A stretch of DNA of 64,000 bases from Bacteroidota bacterium (GTDB taxonomy: Bacteria > Bacteroidota > Bacteroidia > Palsa-965). Numbering within the stretch: position 1 is the stretch's first letter; every line of letters begins with the position of its first letter. The position numbers were made by a program, and so were the translations under genes. The notes under the pieces were generated by a model that had not been told where the DNA came from, did no database searches, and saw only the letters and a program-made list of their open reading frames with translations. Location of the stretch: the NCBI GenBank assembly GCA_016194975.1, contig JACQAM010000026.1, positions 1 to 64,000 on the forward strand. Reading direction: 5' to 3'. Positions 21,449-36,123 of this stretch are shown piece by piece.

Positions 21449-22246
21449 TTACTTTACACCTATAGTTTGCCCGATTGAAAGTTTATTGATCAGATTATTT
21501 ATTGCTTTGGAAATATTTTTTTCATTGGTTAATTCTTTGATGAAAGCGGTTCCGACAACCACTCCATTCGTACTCTCCGAAGCAGCTTTTCTTGTTTCAA
21601 AATCATGAATCCCGAAACCAACAAGAACCGGAATCTCCGGAATAATTTCCCGAACTTTCCTTAGTGAAACCATTTGTTCATCAGAAAAAGTTCTACTCTT
21701 GCCCGTCGTGGATGCAGTTGAAACGAGATAAACAAAACTTTTACTCAGCGCCGCAATTTTTTTCAATCGCGTTTCTGAAGTTTGCGGCGTAGCAAGGAAA
21801 ATAAAATACACACCGGCTTTTTCAAAAAATGATTTGTATTCTTCTTCATAGACTTCTACAGGAAGATCCGGAAGAATTACACCGCTGATATTATTTTTTA
21901 CGCACTCATCCAGAAATTTTTTCATTCCGAATTGAATCACCGGATTAAGATACCCCATAAGCACTTTCGGCAATTTTGAATCTTGAATCTTTGAATCCTT
22001 GAATTGATCAAAGAGGATACTGATGCTCATTCCATTCTCCAACGCAATGCGTGATGACTCCTGAATAACAGGACCATCCGCTAACGGATCAGAAAAAGGC
22101 ATTCCTATTTCAACAAGATCAACACCTCGCTTTTCAAGTTCAGAAAGAATTTCCGTTGTGCTGTTCAATTGCGGAAATCCCGCAGTGAAATAAACACTCA
22201 GGATATTCTTTTTCTTTTCCGAGAATAATTTATCTATTGGATTCAT
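21449..22246 (-). CDS. trpA: Tryptophan synthase alpha chain
   Basis: 265-aa TIM barrel that cleaves indole-3-glycerol phosphate. Catalytic Glu lies in LVEIGMPFSDPLADGP near residue 47, and Asp near 58 in the same stretch. Phosphate loop VGFGIHD is present. It lies 8 nt after trpB; the two chains form the channelled alpha2-beta2 enzyme. Confidence 0.95.
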   Translation of the reverse strand: MNPIDKLFSEKKKNILSVYFTAGFPQLNSTTEILSELEKRGVDLVEIGMPFSDPLADGPVIQESSRIALENGMSISILFDQFKDSKIQDSKLPKVLMGYLNPVIQFGMKKFLDECVKNNISGVILPDLPVEVYEEEYKSFFEKAGVYFIFLATPQTSETRLKKIAALSKSFVYLVSTASTTGKSRTFSDEQMVSLRKVREIIPEIPVLVGFGIHDFETRKAASESTNGVVVGTAFIKELTNEKNISKAINNLINKLSIGQTIGVK

Positions 22247-22254
22247 TACAATTG

Positions 22255-23436
22255 TTAATTATTAATTGAACGGATGTAAGTTTCAAGATCTTTGTCGCCG
22301 CGACCGGAAAGATTGATCACGACAACATCATCCTTATTGAATTTTATTTTTTCCAACGCAGCGACCGCATGTGCGCTTTCGAGCGCAGGAATTATTCCTT
22401 CCAATTTTGTCAATAGAAAAGCTGCCTGCAGTGCTTCATCATCTGTTGCAGAAAGAAATTCTGCCCTTCCATATTTACACAGCGCCGCATGCAAAGGGCC
22501 AACGCCGGGATAATCCAGCCCTGCGGAAATGGAATGCGGTTCAGTAATTTGCCCGTCATCGCTCTGCATCAACAGTGTTTTACTTCCGTGAATGATTCCT
22601 GTTTTTCCCAATACAGAAGTCGCTGCAGAAAATCCGGAATCAATTCCTTTTCCTGCTGCTTCCACCGCAATGAGTTTTATTTTTTCATTTTCCAGGAAAT
22701 GATAAAATGCACCGGCAGCATTACTTCCTCCGCCTACACAAGCGATAACAACAGAAGGATTTTCATTTCCTGTTTTTTCTTTCAGTTGCTTTTTTATTTC
22801 TTCCGAGATCACAGATTGAAATTTCGCAACAAGATCGGGATACGGATGCGGGCCTACCACAGAACCAATAATGTAATGCGTGTCTTCCGGATTATTGATC
22901 CAGTCACGGATGGCCTCGTTGGTCGCATCTTTGAGCGTTTTACTTCCTGAAGAAACAGAACGGACTTCAGCGCCCAGCATTTTCATTCGCGCAACATTCG
23001 GCGCCTGGCGCTGAATATCTTTTTCTCCCATGTACACCACGCACGGAATTCCCATGAGTGCGCACACGGTGGCAGTTGCCACACCATGCTGCCCGGCTCC
23101 AGTTTCCGCAATGATCCTTTTTTTTCCGAGACGTTTTGCCAATAGAATTTGTCCGACCGTATTATTTATTTTGTGCGCGCCGGTGTGACAAAGATCTTCC
23201 CGTTTAAGAAATATTTTCGCAGAATATTTTTCCGATAATCTTTTCGCTTCATACAATGGGGTTGGCCTCCCCACATAATTGTGCAGAAGATCATTCAGTT
23301 CCGCGCGGAAAGAATCATCTTCCATGATCGAACTATATTTCAAACGGAGTTCTTCCACATTGGGAAAAAGCAACTCGGGAATAAAAGCTCCGCCGAATTC
23401 GCCGTAATAACCTTTTTCAGAGACTGCGTAATTCAT
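22255..23436 (-). CDS. trpB: Tryptophan synthase beta chain
   Basis: 393-aa PLP enzyme joining indole and serine. I set the start at [16 protein letters not shown] (23436); the upstream in-frame ATG at 23481 adds a His/Ser/Asn-rich tail inside trpF with no family match. The PLP lysine lies in HTGAHKINN, and the phosphate-binding loop is GGGSNAAG. It overlaps trpF by 20 nt. Confidence 0.95.
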
Positions 23437-24070
23437 GTGATGATTGTTTGAATGCGTTGACGAATGGTTTGAGCATCTCAATATTTTTTTTGCCGGGATA
23501 TAATTCGAACCTGCTGTTCACATCTATTCCCGCAAATGAAAGATGATGCACTTCGTAAATCTTAAGAACATCAGCAGGGCCAATTCCGCCGCTCAGGAGA
23601 AAAGGTGTGCTGCCGTTATATTCATTCAGTAATTCCCATGCAAATGAAAATCCATTTCCTCCTGCAAGCGGGCCGGCGGTATCAAAAAGAAAAAGATCCG
23701 CAGCGCCTTCATATTCCGCACAGCGTTCGAATGAATTCCCGTCTTCAATTGAAAATATTTTGATCACCTGTACTTTTTCGCGGAGATTCCGGCAATCGCT
23801 TACACTTTCTTCTCCATGCAACTGCACCGCATCGAGACGATAAATTTCAATCGCGTCTTTTATTTCGTCTGCATCGGCATTCACAAAGACGCCGGTTTTT
23901 TTCATTGACGGAACAGACCGTGAAAGTAAAGCGCATAATTCCGGGTCGATCTTTCCGGCTGCATAACGCGGGGAATTATCGGCGAAAATAAATCCTGCAT
24001 AGTCGGCATGCATTTGCGATACCGAAATGAGGTCTTCATTGAAAGCTATACCACAGACTTTAACGATCAT
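23417..24070 (-). CDS. trpF: Phosphoribosylanthranilate isomerase
   Basis: 217-aa TIM-barrel isomerase. The catalytic Cys is in IVKVCGI (residue 6), the general acid Asp in LFDTAG, and the phosphate loop in LLSGGIGP. Overlaps trpC by 4 nt and trpB by 20 nt. TrpF and TrpC are separate proteins here, not fused. Confidence 0.94.
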
Positions 24071-24924
24071 ATCAGATTGGAGTTGGGAGAAGGTTTGCCC
24101 GCCTTTTTAAGCGGAGAGTTGGGAGCCGGCAATTCTTCTGCTTTTAACCTGGAAATAAAATTCGCACACGCTTTTCCGGGATCGGAATTTTTCATGAAGG
24201 CTTCTCCAATGAGAAATCCGGAAAAACCTTTTTCACGCAATTGAAGAACGATGGACGGATCTGAAATTCCGCTTTCGGAAATGAGTGTGAACTGATCGCT
24301 GAGGAGCGTGGCCATTATAACAGAACGTTCTGTATTCACATCGAAATTTTTTAGATCGCGGTTATTTATGCCAATGAGAGTAATTCCATCGCCGATCTTT
24401 TCCATTTCATTTTCTTCATGCAATTCAAGCAGCACTTCCAGCCCGAGAGAAAAAGCCAGCGAAGAATATTTTTTTATTTCTTCTTTCGTCAGCACTGCAG
24501 CGATCAGAAGTATTGCATCTGCACCAATCGATTTTGCTTCGATGATTTGGTATTCGTCCACAACAAAATCTTTTCGCAACACCGGGCAATAATTGATACG
24601 GCGCGCTGCTTCAAGATCTGCATTCTTTCCGCCGAAATATCTTTCATCGGTGAGCACCGACAACGCGGATGCGCCCGCCTGCATATACGCGAGCGTGGTC
24701 GCGCCAGGATCTGCGTACGCATGGATGATCCCCTTCGAAGGGGAACGTCGCTTGAATTCAGCAATGATCCCGCTGAGATCCTTTCGCAGAATATATTTTT
24801 CAAGGGAAACCGGGGTTGTGTTGAAATACAAACTCTTTTCCAGCAGTTTTACCGGGTAAAGAGATTTCTTTTCTTCTGTTTCCTTCCGCTTGTGCGCGAT
24901 TATTTCCTCTAAGATATTTTTCAT
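24067..24924 (-). CDS. trpC: Indole-3-glycerol phosphate synthase
   Basis: 285-aa TIM barrel. Catalytic Lys and Glu residues are in IIAEFKRRSPSKG and VLRKDFVVDEYQI, with INNRDLKNF and SESGI further on. The last about 25 residues (rich in Pro, Ser and Lys) exceed the usual family end and are encoded by a short repeat containing GTTGGGAG twice (about 24076-24123). The repeat appears to have been added in frame. Overlaps trpD by 4 nt. Confidence 0.94.
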   Translation of the reverse strand: MKNILEEIIAHKRKETEEKKSLYPVKLLEKSLYFNTTPVSLEKYILRKDLSGIIAEFKRRSPSKGIIHAYADPGATTLAYMQAGASALSVLTDERYFGGKNADLEAARRINYCPVLRKDFVVDEYQIIEAKSIGADAILLIAAVLTKEEIKKYSSLAFSLGLEVLLELHEENEMEKIGDGITLIGINNRDLKNFDVNTERSVIMATLLSDQFTLISESGISDPSIVLQLREKGFSGFLIGEAFMKNSDPGKACANFISRLKAEELPAPNSPLKKAGKPSPNSNLI

Positions 24925-25913
24925 TTTACATTGATGAATTTCTGAAACGATCTTTTTGCCCTGCCGGAATCGATGGCCTCTTTTGCTTTTTCAACAGCAG
25001 CGCTCCTGTCCTTTTCAATTCCCAGGCATTCCAAAGCAAGCGCCGCATTGGCAATGACAACATTTTTTTGCGCAACAGTTGCTTTATTCTCCAGCACATT
25101 CATGAAAATTTCCGAAGCCGCTGCCGGGGTTGCTCCTCCGAGTAAATCGGAAGGCAGAAGTTTTTCCATTCCGAATGAAATCGGGAAAAGAATTTCCTCC
25201 CCGTTATTCCGGAATATCTTTGCATTTCCTGTCAATGATAATTCGTCATAACCGTCGAGCGAATGCAGGATCACATATTTCTCATTGGAATGTTGCGCGA
25301 TGTAATGATAAGTACGCGCCAGTTCCATACTGAAAACTCCATTCACACGATGCGAAGGTTTTGCCGGATTCACCAACGGCCCGAGCATATTGAAAAATGT
25401 TTTGATACCGAGTTCTTTCCTGATGGGCCCAACACGCTTCAACGCGGGATGAAAAAGCGGTGCGTGCAGAAAGCAAACTCCGCTTTGGTCGAGTGATCTT
25501 TTCAGCACATCATTGTCATTCGGGAATTTGTATCCTAATTGTTCCAGCACATTCGAAGAACCGCTCACGGAAGAAACTCCATAGTTGCCATGCTTGATCA
25601 CTTTTCCTCCGGCGCCGGCGACAACAAACGAAGTAGTGGTAGAAATATTAAAAGTATTTTTTCCGTCACCGCCTGTGCCACACAGATCGATCGTATTTTC
25701 ATTGGGCAGATCGACACGCATGCACAATTCCAGCAATGCAGAACGGAATCCACTGAGTTCTTCGGGCGTCACAGGGCGCATGAGATAAACCGTCATGAAC
25801 GCCGCAACCTGCGATTCATTTCCTTCGCCTGCCGCTATGCGCGCGATCGTGTCGCCCGCCTGCTGGTGCGAGAGTGTTTCGTGCGCGAAGAGTTTTTCCA
25901 GTACTTTTTTCAT
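24921..25913 (-). CDS. trpD: Anthranilate phosphoribosyltransferase
   Basis: 330-aa transferase adding phosphoribosyl to anthranilate. The PRPP-binding GTGGDGKNTFNIST lies near residue 80, with KHGNYGVSS and FFNMLGPLVNPA further on. It lies 1 nt after trpG and is not fused to it. Confidence 0.95.
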   Translation of the reverse strand: MKKVLEKLFAHETLSHQQAGDTIARIAAGEGNESQVAAFMTVYLMRPVTPEELSGFRSALLELCMRVDLPNENTIDLCGTGGDGKNTFNISTTTSFVVAGAGGKVIKHGNYGVSSVSGSSNVLEQLGYKFPNDNDVLKRSLDQSGVCFLHAPLFHPALKRVGPIRKELGIKTFFNMLGPLVNPAKPSHRVNGVFSMELARTYHYIAQHSNEKYVILHSLDGYDELSLTGNAKIFRNNGEEILFPISFGMEKLLPSDLLGGATPAAASEIFMNVLENKATVAQKNVVIANAALALECLGIEKDRSAAVEKAKEAIDSGRAKRSFQKFINVK

Positions 25914-25914
25914 T

Positions 25915-26484
25915 TCAGTTCTCCATAAAATTCCGCATCAGTTCTTCGCCGAATTCTGTCATGATTGATTCGGGGTGAAACTGCACGCCTGCAATTTTTT
26001 TTGTTTTGTGCTGCAATGCCATGACCTGTCCGTTCTCATCTCTCGCTGTAACGAAAATTTCTTCCGGCAGAGTTTTTTCATCCACTACCCACGAATGATA
26101 GCGCCCTGCTTTGAATGCATCAGGAATTCCCTCGAAGAGAAAACCGGAATTTTTTTCTTTGCGAATCTCGGTTGCCACACCATGAAAAACTTTTTCGAGA
26201 TTGATGAGTTTCGCGCCCATTGCTTCCGCTATGGCCTGGTGGCCGAGACAAACGCCGAGAATATTTTTCTTCCCGGCATATTCTTTAATCAGCGGGAGCA
26301 GTAATCCTGCTTCAGCAGGAATTCCGGGCCCGGGCGAAAGAATGATCTTATCATATTCACCGATCTTTTCCATGCTCACCTTGTCATTGCGGAAAACATC
26401 GGGTAATTCGCCGGTGATCTTCTCCACGAGATGAACAAGATTGTAAGTGAATGAATCGTAATTATCGAAAACAAGAATTTTCAT
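25915..26484 (-). CDS. trpG: Anthranilate synthase glutaminase component
   Basis: 189-aa class I glutamine amidotransferase. Nucleophile Cys in GVCLGHQAI near residue 79; His and Glu in HPESIMTE near residue 170. Supplies ammonia to TrpE. It lies 5 nt after trpE. A role also in p-aminobenzoate synthesis is possible, as in other bacteria with one such subunit. Confidence 0.94.
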   Translation of the reverse strand: MKILVFDNYDSFTYNLVHLVEKITGELPDVFRNDKVSMEKIGEYDKIILSPGPGIPAEAGLLLPLIKEYAGKKNILGVCLGHQAIAEAMGAKLINLEKVFHGVATEIRKEKNSGFLFEGIPDAFKAGRYHSWVVDEKTLPEEIFVTARDENGQVMALQHKTKKIAGVQFHPESIMTEFGEELMRNFMEN

Positions 26485-26489
26485 TTTTT

Positions 26490-28004
26490 TTATTTTGAGA
26501 TTTTTTCTGCTGACTGAATGGCCTGGCGTAACGCTTCTAATTTATGATCGATCTCGCGCAATTCTTTTTCAGGAACAGAATTAATGGTGATGCCTGCTCC
26601 CGCCTGGTAATGAAGTTCGCCATTTTTGCTGAGGAAAGAACGGATCATGATCGCTGTGTTCATCGTTCCGTCAAAACCGATCAACCCGATACAGCCGCCG
26701 TAAAATCCTCTTGCCTCAGGTTCCAGTTCATCGATGATCTGCATGGATCTTATTTTCGGAGCGCCTGATAATGTTCCCGCAGGAAATGTATCGCCAAGCA
26801 CACGGAAAATATTTGCATTTGCATTCAGTTCACCACTCACTTTTGAAACGAGATGAATGACGTGTGAATAACGGTGAACTTCGCGCAACGAATCTACACT
26901 CACATTGCGTGCATGACGACTAAGATCGTTCCGCGCAAGATCGACGAGCATGATGTGTTCTGCATTTTCTTTCGGATCCGCGACGAGTTCTTTTTCCAGT
27001 TTTTCATCTGCAACAGCATCGCCGGTGCGGTGGAATGTTCCTGCAATCGGGTGAATTGTTGCTCTTAGAATTCCGGATTTTGGAATTTTGGAATTTGTTA
27101 TTTGTAATTGTGCTTCGGGAGATGAACCGAAAATGCGGTAGTCGCCATAATCGGCGAAAAATAAATACGGAGATGGATTTACCGCACGCAGTGACCGGTA
27201 CACATTGAATTCATCGCCTGAAAATTTCCGGGAGAATTTTCTTGAGAGTACGACCTGAAAAATATTTCCTGTCGCACAATTTTTCTTCGCTGTTTCCGTC
27301 GCCTGCAGAAAATCTTTTTCGCTGATGGAACAACGTTCACCAGCATCGGCATGGAAACGATATTTGGGAACGGAATGTTGCTGCAGCGAATTTTCTATTG
27401 CAGAAAGATCGCTTTCATCGCCCGGCAACAATTGTTCGATGAGATGAATGCGGTGGCGCAGGTGATCGAATTCAATGATGGTGCGGTAAAGTGTGTAACG
27501 CAGAAAAGGAATTTCTCCCTGTGAGTTCCGTTTGCGGAATTTTACATCTTCGAGAAAAGGTATTGCATCGTAACCGAGATAACCGATCAGCCCGGTGACC
27601 ACGCCATCCGGAATATTTTCTTCGGGTTTAAACGCGCTGATGAATTGTTCAAGGATCTGCGGAATACCTCTGCCTGCTTTTTGTGCAGAATGGAAATTGC
27701 AGGAAGGAATTTCAATTTTTATTTCTTCTTTTTCTCCTTTGACTTCAGCAACCGGATCAATGGCAATGAAAGAGCGGCTGTTTCTTCCTTCTGCATTATC
27801 GGCGCTCTCGAGAAGAACGGCACCGGGAAACTGATCGCGCAGGCGCAAGTACATGCTCACAGGCGTAACGGTGTCAGCGAGGATTGTTTTCACGGTGATG
27901 CGCACGGGAATGCTTCCTCTTTTGAGTTCGGGGTTCAAGGTTTCGGGTTCAAGGTTAATCTTCCCGGGTTGTGAATCAGAAATGTCTTTAAGATTCATTG
28001 TCAT
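26490..28004 (-). CDS. trpE: Anthranilate synthase component I
   Basis: Chorismate-using enzyme of about 504 aa. The conserved C-terminal core has DPKENAEHIMLVDLARND, FPAGTLSGAPK and GYLGYDAI upstream; LLESADN near residue 70 is the tryptophan feedback-binding element. I set the start at 28004 (MTMNLKD); a longer in-frame reading to 28070 would translate through the terminator hairpin and is rejected. First structural gene of trpEGDCFBA-DAHP synthase, preceded by promoter, leader peptide and attenuator, so both attenuation and feedback inhibition are likely. Confidence 0.94.
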   Translation of the reverse strand: MTMNLKDISDSQPGKINLEPETLNPELKRGSIPVRITVKTILADTVTPVSMYLRLRDQFPGAVLLESADNAEGRNSRSFIAIDPVAEVKGEKEEIKIEIPSCNFHSAQKAGRGIPQILEQFISAFKPEENIPDGVVTGLIGYLGYDAIPFLEDVKFRKRNSQGEIPFLRYTLYRTIIEFDHLRHRIHLIEQLLPGDESDLSAIENSLQQHSVPKYRFHADAGERCSISEKDFLQATETAKKNCATGNIFQVVLSRKFSRKFSGDEFNVYRSLRAVNPSPYLFFADYGDYRIFGSSPEAQLQITNSKIPKSGILRATIHPIAGTFHRTGDAVADEKLEKELVADPKENAEHIMLVDLARNDLSRHARNVSVDSLREVHRYSHVIHLVSKVSGELNANANIFRVLGDTFPAGTLSGAPKIRSMQIIDELEPEARGFYGGCIGLIGFDGTMNTAIMIRSFLSKNGELHYQAGAGITINSVPEKELREIDHKLEALRQAIQSAEKISK

Positions 28005-28020
28005 TTCAATTTTATCAAAC

Positions 28021-28048
28021 AAAAAACCCGCTGTGTTCAGCGGGCTTT
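28021..28048 (-). terminator. trp attenuator terminator
   Basis: On the - strand AAAGCCCGCTG-AACA-CAGCGGGTTTTTT forms a 7-bp GC-rich stem followed by six T, 16 nt before the trpE start. The leader sequence CGCTGTGT (28088-28081), overlapping the trpL stop codon, is the exact complement of ACACAGCG in the loop and 3' arm, giving a mutually exclusive antiterminator. Confidence 0.8.
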
Positions 28049-28079
28049 GTTGGTTATGATGGTTCAACAAAATGCGGCA

Positions 28080-28139
28080 TTACACAGCGAAAGTATTCTT
28101 TCCTGCGTGCCACCAGTTTTTGTTGTTATTCATTTTCAT
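28080..28139 (-). CDS. trpL: trp operon leader peptide
   Basis: Short open frame MKMNNNKNWWHAGKNTFAV followed by TAA, with tandem Trp codons at positions 9-10. A second ATG at 28133 would give a 17-residue peptide with the same Trp pair. It lies between the promoter and the terminator. A ribosome stalled on TGG-TGG leaves CGCTGTGT free to pair with the terminator arm, whereas a ribosome at the stop codon covers it and lets the terminator form. The start is only 4 nt from the -7 box, so the transcript may be nearly leaderless. Confidence 0.8.
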   Translation of the reverse strand: MKMNNNKNWWHAGKNTFAV

Positions 28140-28143
28140 TGGG

Positions 28144-28176
28144 CAAATATACGGCGAAATTCCGCAGAAATCCAAA
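28144..28176 (-). promoter_or_regulatory. trp operon promoter
   Basis: On the - strand TTTG (28176-28173), a 21-nt spacer and TATATTTG (28151-28144) match the Bacteroidota consensus exactly. It has the same spacing as the histidine promoter at 36091-36123. Confidence 0.7.
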
Positions 28177-28356
28177 TCGGGGAAACCGGGTAGTGTTCGA
28201 AGAAATATTTTTCACAAGATTTTCATTGGTATTTTGATGAACTGCAGAATTTTTTTTAGCCCCGATACCGCAACTGGCTCCGACATTGCGGTAGCGGGAG
28301 GAAAGAAACTTTGAAGTGATGCTGTTGCGCTCCTCCAAATCATCCTAAATTTACTC

Positions 28357-29457
28357 ATGAGAAAAATTGTACTGCTTTTATTACTGCCGCTTTTGCTGAT
28401 CTCTGCTGCTGCCAAAGCGCGACATCTGCAACCCGGATTTGATGCGATGGAATTCCGGAAAATGTTTTCTATTTCGGGTTACCAGCTCGATACGGCGAAG
28501 TGGAAAAACACCTGGATGCCGTATCCAACGGGATATGATCTTGCGTATCGTTCGCCGGTGAGCGGGCTTGATAATCGCTGGGACTTGTGGAGAGCGAAAG
28601 ATTCGGTTGATGTGATCAGTGTGCGCGGTACAACAGCGGAATTCGATTCATGGCTGGAAAATTTTTATGCGGGAATGATCCCGGCGCAGGGAAAATTAAC
28701 GCTGGAGAACGGAAAAACTTTTGATTACAAACTTGCGGAGGATTCAAATGCATACGTGCACATTGGCTGGACCATAGGCATGGCGGAACTTGCGCCCGAT
28801 ATTGTAGAAAAAATAAATTCGGAATATAAAAATGGCGTGAAAGATTTTGTGATCGTGGGCCACAGCCAGGGCGGAGTGATCTCATTTTTGCTGACTTCTT
28901 ATTTGTATTATGAAAAAGGAAAAAGCATTCCGGCTGATATTACATTTAAAACTTACGGAAGCGCTGCGCCTAAACCGGGCAACCAGTTTTACGCTTACGA
29001 TTTTGATTTCATTACGAAAGGGGCCTGGGCTTTTCGTGTTGTGAATTCGGCGGATTGGGTTCCGGAATGTCCGTTCACTATTCAAACGCTTCAGGATCTG
29101 AGCAAGGGAAGCGCTTTTGAAAATGTGGATTTGCTATTGGGGAATGCGCCCTGGCCTTCGAAACCTGTTGCGCGGCGACTCGTTCATAAAATGAATCATG
29201 CGGCGAAACGCGCGCGGAAAAAATTCATAAAATATCTCGGGAAGCGTTCGGGGTTTGTGGTGCGCAAAAAAATGAGTGCGTTTCCTAAGTACAACTATGT
29301 AACGAGTTTCGCTTATGCAACATGCGGCGTTCCGATAATTTTACGGCCAGATGCACATTACCACGAATTATATCCCGACGATGGAAAAAGTATTTTCAGG
29401 CATCATGGTTACGGGCCGTACCTGTACTTGCTGAACCTGGATTACCCGGTTAAATGA
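28357..29457 (+). CDS. Secreted class 3 lipase-like alpha/beta hydrolase
   Basis: 366-aa protein with a signal peptide (MRKIVLLLLLPLLLISAAAK). The nucleophile elbow GHSQGG places Ser at about residue 170, the acid is probably Asp in NSADWVP near 233, and the base one of the His in PDAHYHELY near 334, the layout of class 3 lipases. A TAAATTTA element ends 3 nt before the ATG, resembling a -7 box. No T9SS C-terminal domain is evident. Divergent from the trp operon. Lipid substrate inferred from family only. Confidence 0.75.
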   Translation: MRKIVLLLLLPLLLISAAAKARHLQPGFDAMEFRKMFSISGYQLDTAKWKNTWMPYPTGYDLAYRSPVSGLDNRWDLWRAKDSVDVISVRGTTAEFDSWLENFYAGMIPAQGKLTLENGKTFDYKLAEDSNAYVHIGWTIGMAELAPDIVEKINSEYKNGVKDFVIVGHSQGGVISFLLTSYLYYEKGKSIPADITFKTYGSAAPKPGNQFYAYDFDFITKGAWAFRVVNSADWVPECPFTIQTLQDLSKGSAFENVDLLLGNAPWPSKPVARRLVHKMNHAAKRARKKFIKYLGKRSGFVVRKKMSAFPKYNYVTSFAYATCGVPIILRPDAHYHELYPDDGKSIFRHHGYGPYLYLLNLDYPVK

Positions 29458-35961: not shown

Positions 35962-35991
35962 AAAAAAGGGCTTACCATTTCCGGCAAGCCC
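35962..35991 (-). terminator. his attenuator terminator
   Basis: On the - strand GGGCTTGCC pairs with GGTAAGCCC (one G-T pair) around GGAAAT, followed by six T. It lies between hisL and hisG. A competing pairing of CCGGC just after the hisL stop (within AGCCGGCT) with GCCGG in the terminator 5' arm is possible but only 5 bp. Confidence 0.75.
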
Positions 35992-36027
35992 CTTTGCTAT
36001 TGAGTATGAAACATACCACCAGCCGGC

Positions 36028-36078
36028 TCACCATGAGGGTGTGCTTGCGTGATGATGGTTATGAGTTGTTGTTTTCAT
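36028..36078 (-). CDS. hisL: his operon leader peptide
   Basis: Short open frame MKTTTHNHHHASTPSW followed by TGA, with four His codons among five consecutive positions (H-N-H-H-H). It starts 12 nt after the -7 box of a consensus promoter and lies just before a terminator hairpin, the arrangement of ribosome-mediated histidine attenuation. Between it and the terminator is a small hairpin GTATG-TTT-CATAC. Confidence 0.82.
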   Translation of the reverse strand: MKTTTHNHHHASTPSW

Positions 36079-36090
36079 TGAATGAGGGGG

Positions 36091-36123
36091 CAAATCTAAA
36101 GAAAAAGAGAGTGAATTTCCAAA
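36091..36123 (-). promoter_or_regulatory. his operon promoter
   Basis: On the - strand TTTG (36123-36120), a 21-nt spacer and TAGATTTG (36098-36091) match the Bacteroidota consensus exactly. The rest of the 344-base gap to the next + strand gene (36124-36422) holds nothing else I can recognise. Confidence 0.7.

Follow-up and report, generated by a model that had tools for sequence, protein, structure and literature searches.

Introduction

Tryptophan leader RNAs of Bacteroidetes have a named family in Rfam, RF01692 (Bacteroid-trp), the Bacteroidete tryptophan peptide leader RNA (Weinberg et al. 2010, PMC2864571). The model of this family extends only to the 5′ arm of the terminator and contains neither the 3′ arm nor an antiterminator. 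For Flavobacterium psychrophilum, a member of the same phylum, clues to leader-peptide attenuation before amino-acid biosynthesis operons have been reported (PMC9723704); the main text of that paper gives no pairing model and does not name trp. Sigma-A promoters of Bacteroidota follow the consensus TTTG / TAnnTTTG (PMC7366714), and the −7 box occupies positions −12 to −5 relative to the transcription start site (TSS) (PMC9723704). Genome-wide, 5′ UTRs shorter than 10 nt make up 3.7% in B. thetaiotaomicron (PMC7366714), and 5.5% are leaderless in F. psychrophilum (PMC9723704).

Here we analyse a trp attenuator that had been predicted in a stretch of 64,000 nucleotides from a Bacteroidota bacterium (contig JACQAM010000026.1), called the window below. 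This kind of attenuator is already named (RF01692), which the original prediction did not mention. Upstream regions of trpE for comparison came from GTDB contigs and 92 Bacteroidia genomes; searches at genus and order level gained few relatives.

Results

Read directly from the minus strand, the sequence from 28176 to 28021 holds a promoter, a 19-codon ORF and a strong terminator, in this order, with trpEGDCFBA beyond. The features are as follows (evidence in brackets).

28173–28176, minus strand: −33 element TTTG of a Bacteroidota sigma-A type promoter (sequence; consensus from PMC7366714)
28144–28151, minus strand: −7 box TATATTTG (sequence; TAnnTTTG is common before homologous leaders)
28080–28139, minus strand: trpL leader ORF MKMNNNKNWWHAGKNTFAV, 19 codons, ATG at 28139, TAA at 28082–28080 (sequence; Trp-run ORF conserved in relatives)
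28110–28115, minus strand: tandem Trp codons UGG UGG, residues 9–10, predicted stall site (sequence; kept in relatives)
28082–28091, minus strand: antiterminator leader arm UUCGCUGUGU, overlapping the last trpL codons and the stop (duplex energy; stalled-state fold)
28065–28071, minus strand: upstream arm UUUGUUG of a second antiterminator helix (stalled-state MFE)
28046–28052, minus strand: downstream arm CAACAAA of the second antiterminator helix, overlapping the foot of the terminator 5′ arm (stalled-state MFE)
28023–28048, minus strand: intrinsic terminator AAAGCCCGCUGAACACAGCGGGUUUU with U-tract (folding, terminator scan, conservation)
28027–28036, minus strand: terminator loop and 3′ arm ACACAGCGGG, target of the leader arm (duplex energy; stalled-state fold)
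26490–28004, minus strand: trpE, first gene of the putatively controlled operon (NCBIfam trpE_most, E 2e-125, below the curated cut-off)
25915–26484, minus strand: trpG (NCBIfam TIGR00566, over cut-off)
24921–25913, minus strand: trpD (NCBIfam TIGR01245, over cut-off)
24067–24924, minus strand: trpC (NCBIfam NF001377, over cut-off)
23417–24070, minus strand: trpF (best NCBIfam match phosphoribosylanthranilate isomerase, E 2e-42, below cut-off)
22255–23481, minus strand: trpB, ORF as listed (NCBIfam TIGR00263, over cut-off); its true start is probably slightly downstream of 23481
21449–22246, minus strand: trpA (NCBIfam TIGR00262, over cut-off)

As is general for trp attenuators, a short ORF with tandem Trp codons precedes the operon and an intrinsic terminator lies between this ORF and trpE. 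TTTG and TATATTTG, separated by a spacer of 21 nt, fit the sigma-A consensus of the phylum, and both the consensus promoter and the 19-residue leader with W9–W10 were thus called correctly by the original prediction; an alternative in-frame ATG of trpL is located at 28133. The terminator was recovered independently by a terminator scan (11 bp, 6 GC), and folding of the leader RNA has a z-score of −5.6 against dinucleotide shuffles, none of 200 shuffles being as good. The upstream neighbour gene (28357–29457) is divergent from the trp operon and therefore the terminator can act on the trp transcript only. A close TrpE is missing from five of seven genomes of the same genus, three of these being 97–100% complete, which points to a trp operon that is patchily kept or transferred.

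Given the position of the −7 box (−12 to −5), the TSS in the window is predicted at 28139, the A of the ATG, i.e. trpL would be leaderless. TAnnTTTG stands upstream of 142 of the 173 homologous leaders, compared to 8% in shuffles. The predicted 5′ UTR of trp leaders is at most 5 nt in 59/138 and below 10 nt in 80/138 cases (leaders L010–L249). Trp leader ORFs in Bacteroidota are predicted to be leaderless or nearly so, far above the published genome-wide rates.

The leader segment CGCUGUGU (28089–28082) is the exact complement of ACACAGCG (28036–28029), and the helix reaches 10 bp when two G–U pairs are counted. Exact complementarity between the leader near the trpL stop and the terminator 3′ arm had been proposed; the 8-bp match is indeed exact, but its target is composed of 3 nt of the loop and 5 nt of the 3′ arm. 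The duplex UUCGCUGUGU:ACACAGCGGG has an energy of −15.0 kcal/mol, with z-scores of −3.5 to −4.0 against shuffled leader segments and −3.3 against terminators of other species, and such values indicate that the pairing is not due to chance. With the 5′ arm plus loop, the leader of the window copy forms a duplex of only −3.8 kcal/mol (z +1.1). More specifically, the full stalled fold consists of UUCGCUGUGU:ACACAGCGGG, two GC steps and UUUGUUG:CAACAAA, and the nucleotides captured by the antiterminator number 7 in the 5′ arm, 3 in the loop and 7 in the 3′ arm. Of the −19.1 kcal/mol of antiterminator energy, −13.6 come from loop and 3′ arm (rank 5 of 173). Hence the leader does pair with the loop and 3′ arm, as was claimed, but not instead of the 5′ arm, which is not left free, 7 nt of it being engaged in the stalled state. 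An antiterminator that reaches across the terminator loop is a better description of the element than a swap of arms.

The effect of ribosome position was computed with footprints fixed by rule (11–13 nt). In equilibrium folding with blocked footprints, the terminator probability in the window is 0.95 for free RNA, 0.43 with the ribosome stalled and 0.90 with the ribosome at the stop codon. While the window copy switches, most homologs, and also E. coli, prefer the terminator at equilibrium even when the ribosome is stalled; the argument therefore rests on the order of synthesis. The terminator was then allowed to emerge base by base, in a stepwise test that took the place of equilibrium folding. 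With the ribosome stalled on the Trp codons of the window copy, the antiterminator is ahead at each emergence step, by 5.5 to 12.1 kcal/mol and by 2.6 kcal/mol in the end; with the ribosome at the stop, the terminator is ahead by 14 kcal/mol. The E. coli trpL control, its sequence verified against 5371 genomes, yields values of −10.5 to +2.9 with the ribosome stalled and of 0 to 13 with it at the stop; it behaves as known, which supports the soundness of the stepwise test. For the set of 174 leaders, the lead of the antiterminator amounts to 7.3 kcal/mol in the stalled state, −1.2 at the stop and 3.6 with the leader of another species (p 3e-19); it is important to note that p values overstate the number of independent cases because related sequences are not independent. 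In these computations the antiterminator is mutually exclusive with the terminator, being masked by a ribosome at the stop codon and freed by one stalled at Trp. Both halves of the switch in the original prediction, masking of the leader arm that permits termination and its release by stalling, agree with the computed energies.

Similar pairing was found in relatives. On average, loop and 3′ arm add −9.1 kcal/mol for the window copy together with its five closest relatives, −8.3 for a large family (f53, probably Flavobacteriaceae) and −6.9 elsewhere, while the gain is 0 in E. coli and −3.4 to −4.3 kcal/mol with mismatched leaders. Over all species taken together, pairings with the 5′ arm and with the loop/3′ arm are each specific to their own leader (permutation p 2e-4 each). 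Throughout the phylum, antiterminators tend to run from the 5′ arm through the loop into the first part of the 3′ arm. The nearest relatives, whose TrpE is only about 50% identical, do not preserve the individual bases of the exact 8-bp match: L010 retains GUGUGA:UCACAC, and L092–L094 lean more on the 5′ arm.

In f53, leader ORF and terminator are present in all 69 genomes added (69/69). A UCGUGA(A) element close to the leader stop pairs with UUCACGA, of which UUCAC lies in the loop and GA in the 3′ arm; this pairing is formed in 87% of cells versus 18–50% for slid registers. UCGUGA(A) may precede, overlap or follow the stop codon, and its reading frame varies, which shows that it is the RNA and not the peptide that is kept. 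Exceptions that compensate were read by eye in L234 (GUCGCAAU:AUUGCGAC), L240 (UCGCGA:UCGCGA), L239 (GCGAU:AUCGC) and L248 (GCGAG:CUCGC), some of them requiring a shifted register. Compensatory changes in relatives, which had been named as a check, are thus seen in f53 and support the loop-spanning pairing.

A plain E. coli-type attenuator could be considered, in which only the 5′ arm is captured (UUUGUUG:CAACAAA and short GC steps) and the loop/3′-arm match is incidental. When all Bacteroidota are taken together, the 5′ arm does give the stronger pairing signal (mean z −1.1 to −1.2 versus −0.4 to −0.5). However, in the window it is the 5′-arm duplex that is weak (−3.8, z +1.1) and the loop/3′-arm duplex that is strong (−15.0, z −3.5), the loop/3′-arm gain exceeds that of mismatched controls in both groups (p 2e-24 in f53, 6e-9 in the others), and the compensatory changes in f53 speak against an incidental match. 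We consider 5′-arm capture alone unlikely and prefer the loop-spanning antiterminator.

A short Trp-run ORF (WW or WxW) precedes trpE in 108 of 129 Bacteroidota upstream regions, so the WW frame is conserved in relatives, the second check that had been named. A strong U-tract terminator follows nearly always 22–65 nt past the leader stop of the 108. At least 4 of the 21 regions lacking the ORF (G082, G114, G144 and G172) carry a Bacteroid-trp RNA farther upstream, which makes 108 a lower bound. In seven leaders (L107, L124, L145, L146, L149, L156 and L163) WLW or WRW replaces WW and the terminator is retained. Two complete WWW leader–terminator units stand in tandem before one trpE in L011 (ORFs 423 and 186 nt before the TrpE match) and in L167 (310 and 180 nt).

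The AUG of trpE at 28004 comes directly after the U-tract, the start codon being 19 nt downstream of the hairpin, as would suit a hairpin that works mainly on trpE translation and not on transcription. Such a role is improbable: the terminator has a canonical U-tract, and its distance to trpE varies widely in relatives while leader and terminator stay together. A constitutive terminator beside a chance Trp-Trp ORF has a negligible probability, since Trp run, spacing and terminator are conserved across the phylum and WW ORFs occur in 2% of shuffled regions (550 bp), even though sites resembling terminators arise frequently by chance (30 found, 19 expected).

As judged from computed folding, the window contains a second attenuator, before hisG.

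36028–36078, minus strand: His leader MKTTTHNHHHASTPSW before hisG
35964–35995, minus strand: terminator of the His leader
36091–36098, minus strand: promoter TAGATTTG of the His leader

Its computed competition between stalled and stop states is attenuator-like and would act mainly via the 5′ arm and loop. A genome search for more TTTG-ATG-TGGTGG leaders gave, besides the trp one, only matches that seem to be coding sequence. A dispersed repeat of about 90 bp lies upstream of the divergent gene (28243–28334); it contains the inverted repeat ACCGCAA...TTGCGGT and is present at seven other genome sites with up to 94% identity. The divergent gene itself (28357–29457, plus strand) encodes a 366-aa protein, probably secreted, with a GHSQG lipase-like motif and no NCBIfam match.

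Discussion

Our results make it highly probable that the element is a ribosome-mediated transcription attenuator of the trpEGDCFBA operon with a loop-spanning antiterminator. From the observed anatomy, conservation and energetics we infer the ribosome positions, the TSS and the switching as follows. Transcription would begin at or beside the leader AUG, with the ribosome trailing the polymerase. When Trp-tRNA is ample, the ribosome would get to the stop codon and cover UUCGCUGUGU, and the terminator (28048–28023) would form. When Trp-tRNA is scarce, the ribosome would stall at W9–W10, freeing UUCGCUGUGU, which together with UUUGUUG could pair along the 5′-arm foot, the loop and the 3′ arm of the emerging terminator. 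The terminator would be kept from closing and trpE would be transcribed. If there is no translation, the leader hairpin may trap UUCGCUGUGU, again allowing the terminator to form.

It is possible, although we propose it tentatively, that trp attenuators of Bacteroidota represent a distinct design: the ORF would be leaderless or nearly so, and the antiterminator would grip the loop before hairpin closure and then displace the 3′ arm, as opposed to the 5′-arm capture alone of E. coli. If this is true, the 5′ arm need not be sequestered ahead of the polymerase for attenuation to work in Bacteroidota, and the mRNAs from which attenuation starts have almost no 5′ UTR, in a phylum without the usual Shine-Dalgarno sites. 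Such a start would have implications for how closely transcription is coupled to translation in Bacteroidota. Our analysis also broadens a narrow Rfam entry to the majority of the examined trp operons of a major phylum, and its pairing model is concrete enough to be tested.

Regarding known systems, the Rfam search of the window at gathering cut-offs gave no match. The window copy does not match RF01692 at E up to 10 (gathering cut-off of 49 bits not reached), and with the proteobacterial Trp_leader RF00513 it scores 30.9 bits (E 1.2e-4), below the gathering cut-off of 41 bits. RF01692 matches 11 of 197 Bacteroidia genomes, and L128, L181, L182 and L234 (f53) match it over its cut-off. In the open-access literature covered, we found no description of the loop/3′-arm pairing. 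The window copy shares with RF01692 a Trp leader before trp genes in Bacteroidetes and Trp codons within the leader hairpin. With E. coli trpL it shares tandem Trp codons, a leader hairpin, alternative antiterminator and terminator, and a decision made by ribosome position; unlike in E. coli, the leader AUG is predicted to be leaderless. The four-segment arrangement of E. coli, with the antiterminator on the 5′ arm only, does not describe the window copy: the antiterminator of E. coli trpL engages 5 nt, all in the 5′ arm, and that of the window copy 7, 3 and 7 nt of 5′ arm, loop and 3′ arm. The element thus departs from the E. coli plan, as originally suggested, but the layout is recurrent in Bacteroidota and not peculiar to the window copy.
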